This document shows, piece after piece, positions 1,166 through 55,490 of a stretch of 64,000 nucleotides of DNA; position 1 is the first letter of the stretch; the number at the start of each line of letters is the position of its first letter. The position numbers and the translations under genes are program-made. Below the pieces are notes generated by a model that worked only from the letters and a program-made list of their open reading frames with translations, was not told the origin of the DNA and did no database searches. The stretch comes from Rhodamnia argentea (Eukaryota; Streptophyta; Magnoliopsida; Myrtales; Myrtaceae), in NCBI RefSeq assembly GCF_020921035.1, contig NC_063154.1:2542001-2606000 (forward strand). The letters are read 5' to 3'.

Positions 1166-4100
1166 ATGGACGTGATAAAGACGCAGCAGATATCAGCAAG
1201 GCCGATAGAGAAGGTGATAGTCCATCCTCTGGTCCTTCTCAGCATCGTCGACAATTACAATAGAGTCGCCAAGGACACTCGCAGGCGCGTCGTCGGGGTC
1301 TTGCTCGGTAGCACCTTCAAAGGCACCGTCGATGTCACCAACAGCTATGCAGGTTTCGTGTCGGCTCTCTCTTTTTGATTTTCGGCTTCCCTGATTTGAT
1401 TGGGGATTTTTGCTTTCTCCAGTCGGATTTAGATCTGGATGCATTGGGAATGCTAGTGAGAAACAGTTCATCTCTTGACGTGATTGGTATGGCGTAACTT
1501 GACTTGGTATTGGCGAGAGTGCAATAGGTTCTGTTGAAGAATGAGGTTTAGGATCTTGATTGAGCAAATTTTGGAGAGCTCGCAGCTCAATATTTTGCAA
1601 CGTGGCTTTAGTTTGATCACTAAACGCTTAGGACTATAGTTTCTTTGAGGAAACAAGCTTCAAACTTGTCTACCTTGGCTTTTGGAGGATAAATTAGTTT
1701 GCCGAGTTTGAAGCAGAGCATTCAAGTGGACCATCTGTTATCTCTGACCCTTCAGCGGTGGTTTCTTAAGTGAGGATAAAATTAAAACGAAGATGCAAGG
1801 TGTTGAGTTATGGAAATCATTGAAGGGAAGGCCATAGGCAACTAGAGAGGCATTTGACTTAGTATTTTCTTCCTGAAATTTCTGCCATTTAATGAGGGGA
1901 GCCATCGCAGAAATGGTTTAGTCTGGTGTTTCTATAAAATTGATACCGCTGTTGCTTATTTGAATCTATTAGCTAGCATTTGTCTGGTATTATATGAGTA
2001 TTGGGCTTAGTTTGGTGGCGATGTAGATATTATGTTGTTATCTACAGTCTGCTCGACATGTGATTCATACGAAGATCTCTGCTTATTGATTTTATCTTTT
2101 TTCTGACCTTCAGTACCTTTTGAGGAAGATGAGAAGGATCCGAGCATCTGGTTTCTTGATCACAACTACCATGAATCAATGTTCTCCATGTTCAAGAGAA
2201 TAAATGGTACTTACTTATGGAGTCACCTTTTTATTTCAGTAACTATTTGAAGTGGTAATTGTCTAGTAACGTGCTCTGTGTATTATTTTACAGCGAAGGA
2301 GCATGTTGTTGGATGGTATAGCACTGGTCCCAAGTTGCGAGAAAATGACCTTAATATCCACACATTGTTTGATGAGTAAGACTTTCTGCTGGATTTGTGC
2401 ATGAGATTGAATTATTGCAGTTTCGTGATCGCCCTCTCTATATGTCCCTAAATGTCTAATTTTGTTTTTATTTATGAGTTAGGTGGTCACTTTGTCATAA
2501 GGAAGATAGCGACACAAGTTCCTGTTGCCTTTCTTTTCTTTTAGCATCCTAATTAGGCACATCGTTGTTGAATTCTGTACTGTGCTACGGGTTTCAGATG
2601 GGTTCTGTTGTGGGAGAGGCCTTGTTAATCTTATTTATAAAATCTTCGCTGGGGAAGATCACTTACCTTTGGCGTAGAACATGGGCAAATGTTTGCATTT
2701 GATAGAATAATGAAATGAGTGTAACCGGTACTCTTAGGATGAAGTTGATCAAAAACTCCTTTTTCTTGCTACTTCTAGCATCTTTATATTCAGTCAAACT
2801 AATCTAGTTGTACTTCTATTTCACGGACTGGTCACTCAAACTGCATATGCTACTAATCAAGTTTTACCTCTTGTGTTCAGTTATGTCCTGAACCCTGTGC
2901 TGGTTATAATTGATGTTCAACCCAAGGAACTTGGAATACCAACAAAGGCATACTATGCTGTTGAAGAAGTCAAAGAGGTAAGAGTAGGTAGTTTCCCACC
3001 ATAGCTGCCTCTTGTTGTCAAAATTTAAGCTCAGTGTGCTTTCCATATAACACATATGAGGTTCATTTAAATTTTCTAGGGTTAACCTCTCTTTTTTTTC
3101 CCCCAGAATGCAACTCAGAAGAGCCAGAAAGTATTCGTGCACGTTCCTTCAGAAATTGCTGCCCATGAGGTTGAGGAAATAGGTATGTTTTTGAGATGGG
3201 AAGATTCCTGTCTTGAAATGGTGATGTCATTATTAATCCCAGTCCTAGAGGTCACTGTGACTACATACTGTACCATGAAATGCGTCAATGATTCACTTAT
3301 TGACAGGTGTGGAGCACTTGCTACGTGATGTAAAGGATACAACCATTAGCACCCTTGCCACAGAGGTAACATGTCCTGACACTTTTTTCCTCTTTTTCTT
3401 TTCTTTTTGATACAGTGTCCCGACACTTTTTTAGGCTAATATCTGTATGAGTTTCAATTGTAGAATGAAGATCCACAGATAAAATCTGATTGCTGGTTCT
3501 CCTTAACTCGAGAGTTCATTATTACGTACAGGTCACTGGAAAGCTCACAGCCTTGAAGGGATTGGATGCTCGACTTAAGGAGATAAGAAGTTATCTTGAC
3601 CTCGTCATTGATGGAAAGCTCCCATTAAATCACGAGATCCTGTATCATCTTCAGGTTCATTATCGTCATCTATGAAGAGTGTGGGGATATTTTTCATCTG
3701 TGAGATGCATGCCGACTTCTATGAAATCGATTATTAAAGGACTCATATGGATGATACCTTAAGAATAACTGCATTTGTTGGCAATGAAGTTTATTCTGTT
3801 GGATGCAAAATAGAACCTGGCTCTCTGCTTCTGCTGTATCGGCAGTTAATGTTGCTGACCTGCAAAACTTCTATATTAAGAGCTTCAAGCTTTCTAGCCA
3901 TGTCTTTCTTGTTCATTTAAAGCTTATAGTTTCAGATGGAAATGAAGGAGAGCAGTCTTATTTTTTATTAGCAATTAGGCTGATGGGCTAATGGCCTGTC
4001 TTAGAAAATTCTCAGTTCCGTGCTTATTCATTATCAGAGTTGATAGATAACTTCTCATGTATTTGGGATTATTTAATTAGTTGCAGTTATTTTGTTATTC

Positions 4101-4941
4101 AATCTGTATTGCTTTTGTTGGCCTGTCCTCTCCTTGCTTGCATAATAGTTTAATTAGAAATTACAGATTGCAAACTCATTATAGAATATCAATTATCATT
4201 TATTTTGGACCTTACACTTTTTTTCTTCTGTGGATCCTATAGGATGTCTTTAACCTCCTTCCGAACCTGAATGTCAATGAGTTGATAAAGGCTTTTGCAG
4301 GTAATGGAAGGATATCTTGGGATTTTAATTTTGCCTACTATGCTTACATATTTCCACTTTATCCTTACTGGATAATTTCCTCTTCACAGTTAAAACGAAT
4401 GATATGATGCTAGTTATATATCTCTCTTCCCTCATCCGAAGTGTGATCGCTCTCCATAATTTGATCAACAATAAGGTTCGTCAGCTGCCTTCATTCTAGC
4501 TTATTCTGCTTCCGGTTATTATTCTCCTTCCGGTTGTTGCATGACCACGCAGTCTTCTAGTACTGATTCTACCAGTTCAACTCCTAAGAAAAATTATTTT
4601 TAGGCTTTTAAATGAAGAACCCATGATTACGCTTCCTTTTAGTACAAGATGAGTTACTGACCAGTTTCCTTATTATCAGTACTGAGAGCTTGCTTTTATT
4701 GTCCTACTGACCATCAGTTAATGTAATTGTGCGCGCGCCTTGTTCGTGGACCTGACTAAGCTCCTCTCGAAGTTGCATTTGGGTTTTACTTGTTTCATGC
4801 GATAATCATGCTTATTTATGCTCTATCATTCTTGGACACTTGGATGATATCACTGATTTCTTTTTACAGATTCTCAACAAAGAACACGAAAAGGCTGAAG
4901 ACTCAAAACCTGTCGCCGTACCTGCTGCAGCTGGAAGCTAG
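1166..4941 (+). CDS. RPN8: 26S proteasome non-ATPase regulatory subunit 7 (RPN8), MPN-domain lid subunit
   Basis: RPN8 is a non-catalytic MPN subunit of the 19S lid; it pairs with the deubiquitinase RPN11. I place ten exons at 1166-1352, 2114-2206, 2294-2375, 2881-2977, 3107-3182, 3307-3365, 3532-3654, 4243-4300, 4390-4475 and 4870-4941. All are bounded by GT–AG and keep frame, giving 310 residues, close to the usual plant length of about 308. The start [10 protein letters not shown] matches plant RPN8 and is the first in-frame ATG of that block. The MPN domain covers roughly residues 15-150 ([19 protein letters not shown], then the [13 protein letters not shown] block). The metal-binding HxH of active JAMM enzymes is absent, as expected. 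The C-terminal part ([44 protein letters not shown]) forms the helical lid-interaction tail. PXN begins 1.3 kb downstream on the same strand. Confidence 0.95.
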
Positions 4942-13628: not shown

Positions 13629-16600
13629 ATGCCGGAAACCAAAGCGGAAAGCCCGAGCAAGAACGCGAAGAAGGCGAATCTCTTGGATCAGCACTCCATC
13701 AAACACATTCTCGATGAGTCCGTCTCCGAGGTACAATTGAGACCCGGCCAATTTGCTTTCTCCGTTCGTCCTTTTCCCAGATCCGTCCTTTAGTCGCTCA
13801 ATTCCTGGAGCAATCGGCTCATTGTTGTGGTTTAATTCTTAAGATCGTCAAGAGCCGGGGGTACGTGGAAGATGTGCGGATGAGCAACGTGAGGCTGTTG
13901 ATCGGGACGGTCATCATCGTCATCGCTCTCTTCGCTCAGTTCTACAAGAAGAAGTTCCCCGAGAACAGGGACTTCTTGATCGCCTGCATCGTATTATATC
14001 CTTTTTTTTTTCTTCTCGCCTTTGTTCTTTCTCGCTCACTTGATGCCCTCTAGCTGTTTGATTTCCGAGAAAGTCGACTAAATATTGCAGATTTTGATGG
14101 AACTGCCGCTTTCTTTTACGTGGAGGTGGAGTGTTTACAATTGAGTGTTTTTTTTTTGGGGGGATTCTTCGAATGCACTGAAAATCGGATTTCAAATGTA
14201 TGATCTTTCAGTTGCTCGTTCAGTAGAAAATTGCGAGGGCGGGGGGGGAGGGGGAGAGGGGGAAGACCGTCATGCTGATTTTCCTCATTCTCTGCCTTCG
14301 TTTTTGTGGGAAAAGTTTACTGTTCTGTTTTTATTTCTCTGAATTGGGCAAGGACTTATAGACTGAAATGCCCAAGGGGGGTGTTGCAGGGTACAAAAAT
14401 ATACTCTTCAAAGTCGGGAATCAAAAAAAGATTTTTGCGTGGAAATTGTCGCATTTCATTTGTTTTAGAGATCGTGATCCTTAATTCTGGCAAGTATATT
14501 GTTTTCAATGGTATGTTGCAGCTGCTCATATATACCAAGGAGAAGAATGCCATTATGTTTACCTATCCACCTGTGGTGAGTTCATTTGTTCCATAGAATG
14601 GACGACTTCTTATACACTGATGTTGCAGACAGTCTACCTTACTCTGCTTTTTTTTTCCCACCCTAGTGTGCTGTGATCTTATTTCTTGACCATGTTTTAA
14701 GTTATGAATTTTAAACTGTGGTTCTTGCATATACTTGTTTATTTTCATCTATATTAGCTATTGGCAAACGTGAAGCCTTGTGTGCATATTTTGGGTTGTG
14801 CCTTGCATGTCAGGTGCATTATCTTTACTTACGATTTTGAAAGATCTAATTCCAAAGAAATATGAAGATATTTACCCTTAGCGGCCAATTTAGTGCTCCT
14901 TTTTTCTTGTTGGTAATGATGGATGAGTAATGCTCGATGATGATGATGAGGAGGCTTTTTAAGTTCAAACTATTTGTTTTTTTTTTTTTATGTTTGGAAT
15001 TCTTTGGCCCTAAATTATCTTTACTTCTTTCTTAACAGAAAATTTTTTTCAATTTTCCAATGAAGAATATGTAGGTCCATTTTGGTTTATTGGCTAGCAT
15101 TGAAACCCATGGTATGCATGAGAGAGAAACTTAATTGACCAACATAACAAACCTATAATTCTGTGTGAGAGGATTGTCTTCAATCAACCTTACTACTCAA
15201 AAAGTGTTGATGAAATGTCTACCCTTTCATGCTTCTTAATATTTAATTTCTCGTTTTACTCAACGTTTGAGCAATAAATTTTATTGCTCAAATGTTTCTT
15301 CTTGTCATACAACTGTATTCCCATTACAACACTTCCTGAACATAAAGAAATTTAAGTTCAAAGATAAATAGTGACAAATTTTCTTTTACATTTCTCTAAA
15401 CTTTTGAAATTGTTGTTATTGGAAAATTGATTTGGGAATTGTGTAAACTTCTATTCCCTCCTTGCCATTTCTGATTTTAGAGTACATATTATATGATTTA
15501 CGACATTTCTGTATTTTCCGGAAACTTCTTATTGGTTTATACTTTGATTGTTTTGGATAATTTGTCTTTCCTCTTGTTTTGGACAATATTTTTGGGTTCA
15601 TTGACCGACGACCCCAACTAGTTTGGGATAAAGGTGATGTTGATGTTGATGTTGAAAAATGTGGGGATGACAGACTCAGCATGTGTTAAATGTCATCTGG
15701 AAGGAATGTTGTAGGGGCATATTGCTTTGATATATGAGCTATATTGATGGACATATGGACCTTCATCATTTCAGCGTATGTATCCCTCCTTTTCTTTACA
15801 TATGCAGAGTCGGGAAAACCCACAGACGTATCTTGGCCAATGGGAGTCTCATTTGATCTATTGATTATTTTAAGACTCTTGCTTTTGCTATGGCAGGCTT
15901 TTTTTCTGCACATATCCGATGGCATTCAAAATTCGACTTCCATTTCCTTAATTCCTGTAAATTTTTTGAATTTGGCTATCCACTCTCAGTATTAATATAT
16001 TATGGATGTTGATCTTGATGGTCGTTACTTGCGTCTTTCTCTTTGGTGAATTGTAGAGATGAAACATGTCTGCTATGCCTATTGTGTTCCATGGTTATCT
16101 TTGAATGAGAGTTGTATCTTCTTTTGCATCTCAATTTGCTATTCCAATATTTACTGTCTTTTTTGGTAATCATATACCTGTTAGTTCATCAGCACATCAT
16201 TCATTTGTTTTGAAATTGTTTGAGTAATGTATCAGATGGGCATTGCATTTAGATGGCGCTAGACTTTTAATGGGCGTCATAGAATTTGCTGTAAACTATG
16301 TCATGTATTTTCCAATCCACAGAGCGTTGGCTTGTCTGGTTTACTTGAACTTTTTGTTAGTTGTAGACATCATTATCAGAATTTTGGTGTTTCTGACTTA
16401 TTTAAATTTAAGGTCCTCTTTTATTTGATGCATCGGCTGGAATATTCTTTGTTCTCCTTTTTTGCTAGGCCTTGGTTGTGAACTTAACCAGAAGAAACCA
16501 AAAACTATATATCCTGAGATTATCCATTCATTACTTGGCGACTGAGGGGATTATCTGAGGCAAAGTATTGTTTTCATTTACTCCATGTAGGGCTCCTTTA

Positions 16601-17052
16601 ACAGCACTGGACTGATGGTGTCTTCAAAATTACCAAGATTCTCCGACTTGTACACACTTACCATAGCGAGTGCAGACACGAAGTCAATTTCAGCAAACAA
16701 GCCAGTGGAATTAACTAAGAGCGTCACTCAGTGGTCTCTCTCTCTCTCTCTGACATGCACGCTCCTGCACACCTGTATTCACAATGCCCCTCTCACGCAC
16801 TTTCCCTCCATTATTGGAGCTTGGAGACAGTGCTTGCTCGTGTGTGTGCACTAACAATTCTGTGCATCTCCACACTAAATATTGCTTTTGCTTTCATGTT
16901 GTTCCTGCTTCAGATAGATTCCGTGGCTGATTTTCTAGTTCTCTTAATGCTTCAGGTTCACCAAGGACGGGATTCTGGTGGAGGGTCTCTTCTGGAAAGA
17001 TGTTGAAGCACTAATAAACGAGTACAACAAAGAGCCAAAGAAGAGCAAATGA
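13629..17052 (+). CDS. SPC25: Signal peptidase complex subunit 2 (SPC25)
   Basis: SPC25 is a small non-catalytic subunit of the ER signal peptidase complex, which removes signal peptides from secretory proteins. Five exons: 13629-13730, 13844-13995, 14494-14575, 16591-16733, 16956-17052, giving 191 residues (Arabidopsis protein about 192). The start MPETKAESPSKNAKKANLLD fits the family. Two membrane segments are visible: LLIGTVIIVIALFAQFY (about residues 53-69) and FLIACIVLY...MLQLLIYT (about residues 79-100). The conserved lumenal/cytosolic block FSDLYTLTI...VTQWFTKDGILVEGLFWKDVEALI and a basic tail (KEPKKSK) follow. Introns 1, 3 and 4 are GT–AG. Intron 2 starts ATATCCTTTT and has TCCTTAAT just before its end, the hallmarks of a U12-type intron. 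A GT–AG alternative (13991-14494) is also in frame but removes two residues conserved in the family. Confidence 0.93.
13996..14493 (+). other. Probable U12-type (minor spliceosome) AT-initial intron in SPC25
   Basis: The 5' end ATATCCTTTT (13996-14005) matches the U12 5' splice-site consensus. TCCTTAAT (14478-14485) matches the U12 branch-site consensus TCCTTRAY and lies about 9 bases from the end. No polypyrimidine tract separates branch and acceptor. Keeping the frame and the conserved LY dipeptide requires the intron to end in AA (…ggcaa|g). The intron splits a leucine codon inside the second membrane segment. Confidence 0.65.
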
Positions 17053-30180: not shown

Positions 30181-33100
30181 ATGGACGATCGGAACGTGAG
30201 AGGGATGAGCAGCCCGGGCATGTCCGACGTTGTGTTGACGTGCGTCATGCCGTACATCGACGACCCCAAGGATCGGGACGCCATTTCCCTCGTCTGCCGT
30301 CGCTGGTACGAGATTGACGCCTTGACGAGGAAGCACGTTACCATCGCTCTCTGCTATACGACCAGTCCCGATCGCTTGCGGAGGAGGTTCGGCCACCTCG
30401 AGTCGCTCAAGCTGAAAGGGAAGCCCAGGGCCGCCATGTTCAATTTGATACCCGAGAATTGGGGCGGGTACGTGACTCCGTGGGTGACCGAGATTGCCAA
30501 GTCTTTTGATTGCTTGAAGTCGCTTCACTTTCGGCGCATGATAGTGGAAGATTCGGACTTGGCACTACTTGCGAGGTCGCGGGGACGCGTTCTGCAGGTG
30601 CTCAAACTTGACAAGTGTTCTGGTTTTTCGACGGATGGGCTTGTACAAGTGGGGCGTTACTGCAGGTAATTTAGTTTTCTATGCCCTTGGATAGTAATGA
30701 AAGACTTGCAATCCCGGTAACCCTGTTGATTTGCTTATTGTATTTTGCGTCCTTCTGTTATGATGAATGTATGTGTGGTGCATTTATGAAGTTCTTGTAA
30801 TTTTGTGGCTTTGTTTGACTCCATGATGTCATTTTCTGAAGAAATTACTCAACTCAAGAGATGATTGCAACGTCTTGGTTTATGCACTTCACATGGTTCT
30901 AATGTAATGCTTCAATTAGTCTCGAGGGTACCTGAGATATGTCAAAGTGCAGATTCTTCATCTGTTCATATTCTAAATCTTAAGATTCTGGTCATTATAT
31001 AAGATGGAATCTGATTGCTTCATGCTAGAGATGCAGGGATAATTTGTAAGATGGAATCCTAATTTCAGCAGGTAGTTTGTAGAAAAAATCATAAAGATTA
31101 ACATGACAAAAGCTTTAACTGACAGAGAGAGAGAGAGAGAGAAGGACGATGAGACAACAACGATAGAAAAGCTTTGAATTGCTGGGAGATGCAATTCAAT
31201 CAAGCTGTCGCTTGTGAAGATTCGGCCCATTGTGTCATTCTTAAGCTTATAATGGGATAAAGAGTTTCACCTTTGCATATTCAGTCAATTCCGTTTGCCC
31301 TTACTTTTTCAACTCTTTTTAAATTTCCCCTTTCGTGTCATGCATGATTACTGATTACCATTCTTATATTTTTAAAGTGGCTTCTAATTTTATGAGCAAT
31401 CGGAGATGTAGACATGACAAGGGTGTGAATGAAGAACACGCTTATGTATAGAGAACAGGTGGACCTGTAGGACGATAACAGTTTCATTCGGAGGAGGTGG
31501 GTACTAGGGGAAAAAAAGATGATAAGGGTCTTATTTCTCGGAGGCTAACTCCCTGGTTATTAGTACAACGAGAGATCAACTAGTCAAAGAAGGTTCTTTC
31601 TACCAAAAGAAACCTTGATGCATGATGTCAAATCACCTAAAATAGCTGTGAGCGCATTTGTTAGAGGCACAATGAGAAATAGCAGTCTAAAACTGTTAGT
31701 TTAAGGACACTTCAAGGCCATGCTAATGCATAGCACACCTCTTTGGAAGCTATGAGGAGTTTAACAAGAGAGAATTAGATATGTAATAGTTTCACACTTT
31801 TCTATTCTGTCGATTCCCACAGTTTCTGGGTTCACTCAGATTTATCGTCTGTTTCTGTTTTTTCGAGTATGAAGTGACATTGTTGCTGTTATCCGTGATG
31901 CATTATTTGAGTCCTTATTGCCTGGAGCATGTTACTCAAAGAACATTTATGCTTCTGAGTTTGCACTTTACATATAGCAATATAAAAAAAAGGCTTTTAG
32001 CATAGTCATGTACACCCATGTCATTATTTTTTTTTTATGTGTGTCAATATAGATGCGGTACACATATTTTCTCACAAGCTATGCCATCTTTATTCCAGGA
32101 ACTTAAGAACCTTGTTTTTGGAAGAAAGCATAATCATTGAGAAAGATGGTGCGTGGCTTCATGAGCTTGCTCTGAACAACACTTCTCTTGAGACTTTAAA
32201 TTTTTACATGACAGAGCTCTCCAGATTTAATGTCCAGGACCTTCAAATTATTGCAAGAAATTGTCGATCATTAACATCTGTGAAAATTAGCGATTGCGAA
32301 ATTCTGGATCTTCTGGGTTTCTTTCAACATGCAGCTGCTTTAGAAGAATTTGGTGGTGGTCTTTTTAATGATGAACCAGAAAGGTATGCTACTTTATCGT
32401 TCCCAGCGAGATTATGCCGTCTGGGTCTAACCTACATTTCAGAAAATGAGATGCCTATTGTGTTCCCTTTCGCATCTCGGCTAAGAATGTTAGATCTGCT
32501 CTATGCATTTCTTAGCACAGATGACCTCTGTTTGCTGATTCAGCAATGCCCCATCTTGGAAGTTCTTGAGGTAAGATTACGAACTTCTCTCTTTATCTAT
32601 TACTGTTGTAACAATAAATCTTTGCATTGCCTCACTCTCCAGTTGCTGTGCACCTTTGCCTTTGGGAATCTTGGAGTTTGCGACATATATTAGAGGAGAT
32701 TCTAAAGATCTTCCTCAAATACCTCCTTATCGACACTTTGCGCCCTTTAGTTCAAACTCCTACAATTTGCACACCTATGTTCTAAAGTACATACACTTTA
32801 CATACCGGAATCTTCTAAAAAGTTAGAAAAGGTAAAAGCTGCAAATGGTAGGTTTTCTTTCAGGTTGTAATGTAGAGTCTCTATAATAGAGGATGAAGTG
32901 TGGGTTTTGAAATTGAAGGGTGGAAAATGTAGCTAAAAAAGATGGTCGAGGATAGTTGTGGTATTTTTCTCACTCTATTTAGGTTGTCATAATATTTCAA
33001 TGAAAACCTTCTCTTTAGAACAAGTCACTGTTAAAATGGTTGGTCACTTTCTGCAATTGGTGTTTTAGTCACTGTTCACCAATTTGGTCTTACAAGTTCT

Positions 33101-50935: not shown

Positions 50936-55490
<4,555 letters not shown>

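Follow-up and report, generated by a model that had tools for sequence, protein, structure and literature searches.

A probable U12-type intron with AT-AA termini in the SPC25 gene of Rhodamnia argentea

Results

A five-exon SPC25 gene

The window, by which we mean the whole 64-kb stretch of DNA analyzed, contains a five-exon gene for SPC25 (signal peptidase complex subunit 2) that spans positions 13629-17052 on the + strand. Its joined coding exons form a 576-nt CDS encoding a 191-residue protein, which the PF06703 profile matches over positions 2-159 of its 159 with 141.8 bits (cut-off, 24.3). The protein also matches two solved chains, 9rjb_C (E 2.1e-15) and 7p2p_C (E 3.5e-15), both named signal peptidase complex subunit 2; we take 7p2p to be the human complex. 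The gene thus encodes the microsomal signal peptidase subunit and not the like-named kinetochore protein. Its exons, with the support for each, are:

13629-13730, + strand: exon 1, coding part from the ATG (joined-exon translation; exon match in the plant's own genome)
13844-13995, + strand: exon 2, which ends GTATT within a split Leu codon, phase 2 (frame and homology; PF06703 and CDS matches in the own genome)
14494-14575, + strand: exon 3 (joined translation; exon match in the own genome)
16591-16733, + strand: exon 4 (joined translation; exon match in the own genome)
16956-17052, + strand: exon 5, to the stop codon (joined translation; exon match in the own genome)

We searched the plant's own genome (346.7 Mb in 74 contigs), scoring the best candidates. 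Among these, PF06703 was found at one place, SPC25 exon 2, and all five matches to the spliced CDS were the gene's own exons in place. With the 576-nt CDS as query, no processed retrocopy that would record the exon junction was present among the best-scored candidates; as only these were scored, a poor copy could escape. Pattern searches for SPC25 relatives gave 12 matching stretches in viral_contigs and 19 in genome_contigs, none of which (0/12 and 0/19) was confirmed.

Intron 4 (16734-16955) starts GTCTCTCTCTCTCTCTCT, and its donor, GTG|GTCTCT, heads a CT repeat. This is a poor U2 donor, yet it is demanded by both frame and homology.

Other coding sequences lie on either side of the gene. 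On visual inspection, exons at ~2600-4400 (+ strand) appear to belong to a gene for an RPN8-like proteasome subunit. Downstream, an exon at 30181-30666 (+ strand) contains F-box_5 and Transp_inhibit domains, and we read it as probably exon 1 of a COI1-like gene, encoding a jasmonate receptor. Arabidopsis COI1 (At2g39940) presumably lies near SPC25 (At2g39960), and the SPC25-COI1 gene order may be conserved with Arabidopsis. Peptides encoded at 51526 and 52195 (both + strand) tentatively resemble plant adenylosuccinate lyase; a 73-residue piece of them had no Pfam match.

Frame and homology place intron 2 between AT and AA

The original prediction described the second SPC25 intron as a probable U12-type AT-AA intron at 13996-14493, starting ATATCCTTTT and carrying TCCTTAATT near its end, and we recovered these coordinates and motifs exactly. 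The features of the intron are:

13996-14493, + strand: SPC25 intron 2, U12-type, AT-AA termini, 498 nt (frame, homology and motifs)
13996-14005, + strand: U12-type 5′ splice site ATATCCTTTT (no other RTATCCTT on the window's + strand)
14478-14486, + strand: U12-type branch site TCCTTAATT (consensus fit; complementarity with the U12 snRNA gene)
14491-14493, + strand: 3′ splice site CAA (required by frame and homology)

To define the boundaries, we scanned intron starts from 13951 to 14060 against first bases of exon 3 from 14400 to 14559. Five boundary pairs (AT-AA, TA-AG, AT-GT, TC-TA, and CC-AT) gave the full SPC25 protein, all of them 498-nt introns that are one-base slides of each other. 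Only the AT-AA pair has a recognizable splice site, ATATCCTTTT, which follows the U12-type 5′ consensus. The claim that the reading frame requires an AA end holds, with the addition that five pairs keep the full protein. Retention of the intron leads to a stop at codon 104.

Across the intron 2 junction, no gap interrupts the alignment of the protein with 7p2p_C (CIVLYIVFNGML over CVISYFVMMGIL). Intron 2 splits a Leu codon (TT|G) that aligns with the 7p2p_C Ser preceding a common Tyr, and the second hydrophobic segment, CIVLYIVFNGMLQ, is kept whole.

Since a G follows the AA end, there is an overlapping AG one base on, and choice of the U12 3′ splice site is described as error-prone (PMC3584512). 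The minor spliceosome might thus cut one base later, making an AT-AG intron, 13996-14494. As the main form this is highly improbable: the cut shifts the frame, with a stop after 35 new codons, in a gene that has one place in its own genome (among the best-scored candidates), and AT-AG termini are described as disfavoured in the same source.

Possible U2-type splices at the same junction

Two further elements could support U2-type splicing:

13991-13999, + strand: putative cryptic U2 donor GTATTATAT, weak; the frame is kept with an acceptor at either 14494 or 14521
14516-14521, + strand: TTGCAG within exon 3, a putative cryptic U2 acceptor whose use with donor 13991 would delete VLYIVFNGMLQ (11 residues)

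That a GT-AG alternative at 13991-14494 is in frame and drops Val-Leu had been part of the original prediction, and it proved correct. Such an intron has GT-AG termini and is stop-free, and its product would be two residues shorter, with CIYIV in place of CIVLYIV. We considered whether intron 2 is mainly this ordinary U2 intron and judge it very unlikely. The PF06703 score falls from 141.8 bits for the AT-AA product to 130.0 bits, and the two lost residues are aligned gaplessly to the solved SPC2 chain. In a comparison by eye with the U2 consensus, the donor (ATC|GTATTATAT) is weak and the acceptor, GCAAG, has 13 pyrimidines in 25 bases and no clear tract. An ordinary U2 intron would also leave the exact U12 motifs unexplained.

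A different possibility is that the U12-type splice predominates but that U2-type splicing, from donor 13991 to 14494 or 14521, additionally yields shorter isoforms, at least under impairment of the minor spliceosome. This reading is compatible with a U12-type intron 2 and adds to it. Both U2 pairs are in frame, and the acceptor at 14521 has a T-richer lead than that at 14494 (12 versus 8 T in 25 bases), so that TTGCAG looks the likelier U2 competitor. There is also a human precedent: in ~30% of the SPCS2 mRNAs of RNPC3 patients, the U12 splice at intron 3 gives way to cryptic U2 sites (PMC3958305). However, the donor at 13991 is weak, and the hydrophobic segment that the isoforms would shorten, by 2 or 11 residues, is conserved; they may therefore amount to no more than by-products. 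We therefore regard these isoforms as possible, with the odds somewhat against them.

Branch site and 3′ end of intron 2

The branch core, TCCTTAAT, occupies 14478-14485 and is followed by eight bases (14486-14493) to the end of the intron; exon 3 then opens GTATATTG. Taken as TCCTTAATT, the site fits the plant U12 branch consensus TCCTTRATY (PMC5932401) exactly, including the favourable upstream A. Read as ATCCTTAAT from 14477, it has one mismatch to TTCCTTRAY, as the base before TCCTTAAT is A where that consensus has T. The likely branch adenosine is A14484, with A14483 as a possible alternative; they lie 10 and 11 nt, respectively, from the first base of exon 3. This is at or slightly below the stated optimum of 11-13 nt (PMC3584512).

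The intron had been described as lacking a polypyrimidine tract, unlike its neighbors. A distinct tract is indeed absent, and the last 25 bases contain fewer pyrimidines (13, compared to 15, 17, and 18 in introns 1, 3, and 4) and fewer T (8, compared to 13 at the three other introns), although the difference from the neighbors is one of degree. Along with the branch-to-exon distance and the A before TCCTTAAT, base composition counts against a U12-type intron: efficient U12 splicing in plants is tied to high TA content, with ~65% quoted for the CBP20 introns (PMC5932401), whereas SPC25 intron 2 is 58.8% A+T.

The motif pair exceeds chance

The 64-kb window has a single + strand RTATCCTT, exactly at the end of exon 2 as defined by homology, and two on the - strand. 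In first-order Markov sequence derived from the window, the per-base frequency is 1.26e-5 for ATATCCTTT and 7.9e-4 for a branch site that departs from TTCCTTRAY at one position or none. Allowing five possible intron starts and ~20 branch positions (20 being our choice), the product of these rates gives a joint chance of ~1e-6 for both motifs at the homology-defined ends. The pair of motifs in intron 2 thus exceeds chance.

The two - strand occurrences lie at ~4315 and ~3340 (+ strand coordinates). Near 3340, GTATCCTTT lies opposite the RPN8-like gene; as the ~3340 motif is opposite a + strand exon of this gene, we rejected it as a U12 site and took it as chance.

The genome encodes U12 snRNA

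A U12 snRNA gene is present in the plant's own genome, matching RF00007 over its full length (model positions 1-151 of 151) with 87.3 bits. This gene is evidence that the organism has a minor spliceosome. Within the window, an Rfam search gave no match at the gathering threshold. As neither PF06703 nor RF00007 matched any of 14 control genomes, these genomes gave no positive control.

A segment of the U12 snRNA, AGTAAGGA, is complementary to TCCTTAAT at seven of eight positions, the exception being A14484. In this predicted pairing, the unpaired A14484 would sit where a bulged branch adenosine is expected. Because T-rich stretches of intron 2 show equal or better matches elsewhere in the U12 5′ end (8/8 at 14459), the pairing counts by its position and not by its score.

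Discussion

Taken together, the motifs at the places demanded by homology, the gapless homology across the junction, the U12 snRNA gene, and the published U12 introns of animal SPC25 and SPCS2 genes support the claim that SPC25 intron 2 (13996-14493) belongs to the U12 type and, within it, to the AT-AA subtype. On these grounds we hold this reading with high confidence. The intron probably occupies an ancient U12 position in this gene.

From the sequence, we infer that the minor spliceosome removes the intron in the cell. In our model, U11 and then U6atac would recognize ATATCCTTT at the start of the intron, and U12 snRNA would pair with TCCTTAAT, bulging A14484. At its 3′ end the intron would be cut just behind CAA, nine bases past A14484, and splicing would join GTATT to GTATATTG in phase 2, leaving the second hydrophobic segment intact.

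A far more speculative idea is that the AT-AA site, the overlapping AG, and the U2 pair 13991/14521 act together as a switch. In such a switch, the activity of the minor spliceosome would set the amount of intact SPC25, and hence the level of signal peptidase, with the U2 form being made without much of the second hydrophobic segment. We give this little credence.

The U12-type reading has a practical side. Gene prediction restricted to GT-AG introns would set the junction at 13991/14494 or 13991/14521, losing 2 or 11 residues of the hydrophobic segment. As such a prediction would misplace the junction, the SPC25 locus is a useful annotation check. We expect plant minor-intron databases to list the intron; in the passages of open-licence papers that we covered, plant SPC25, including At2g39960, was nowhere described as carrying one of the U12 type.

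SPC25 intron 2 is a good example of a known phenomenon, since the animal genes of this family also contain a minor-class intron. Intron 3 of human SPCS2 is described as U12-type, and the RNPC3-mutant patients contain two novel transcripts made with its cryptic U2 sites (PMC3958305); lariats of this intron have been used as a test of U12 function (PMC11039992). According to these reports, the human intron resembles the one described here in being U12-type, within the coding region of the same gene family, and close to U2 sites, but it is the third intron of its gene, while ours is the second.

The AT-AA termini also have precedents. In the survey of PMC10639083, AT-AA is the commonest non-canonical terminal pair of minor introns in both animals and plants; in plants it accounts for almost 75% of non-canonical minor introns, and non-canonical introns make up ~4% of conserved minor introns. 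SPC25 intron 2 thus shares its terminal pair with plant AT-AA minor introns, although the pair is rare overall. By its termini, the intron belongs to the AT-AN class. In human cells, AT-AN minor introns are reported to require CENATAC and, as a group, to be spliced less efficiently (PMC8280824); in Arabidopsis, DROL1 is cited as required for AT-AC introns (PMC11039992).

A further counterpart comes from Trichinella spiralis, where an AT-AC U12 intron, bounded by ATC and GTA, was found in SPC25 from an EST (PMC2846911). The Trichinella intron resembles SPC25 intron 2 in its start, ATATCCTTTC, and branch site, TTCCTTAAC; it differs in ending AC rather than AA. If the Trichinella intron is in phase 2, the reported junction reads TCG TA, or Ser-Tyr, the same place as here and similar to ISY in the solved chain. 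In phase 0 the letters would instead read Ile-Val, and in phase 1 the middle codon would be Arg. The position of intron 2 is thus likely to be common to Trichinella SPC25, provided that the phase is 2 and bearing in mind that we noticed the fit after the fact. On this comparison, the intron may descend from an AT-AC intron that plants share with animals. If its position is truly common to human SPCS2 and Trichinella SPC25, a U12 intron has been kept across animals and plants, while in the lineage described here its 3′ end has drifted from AC to AA.
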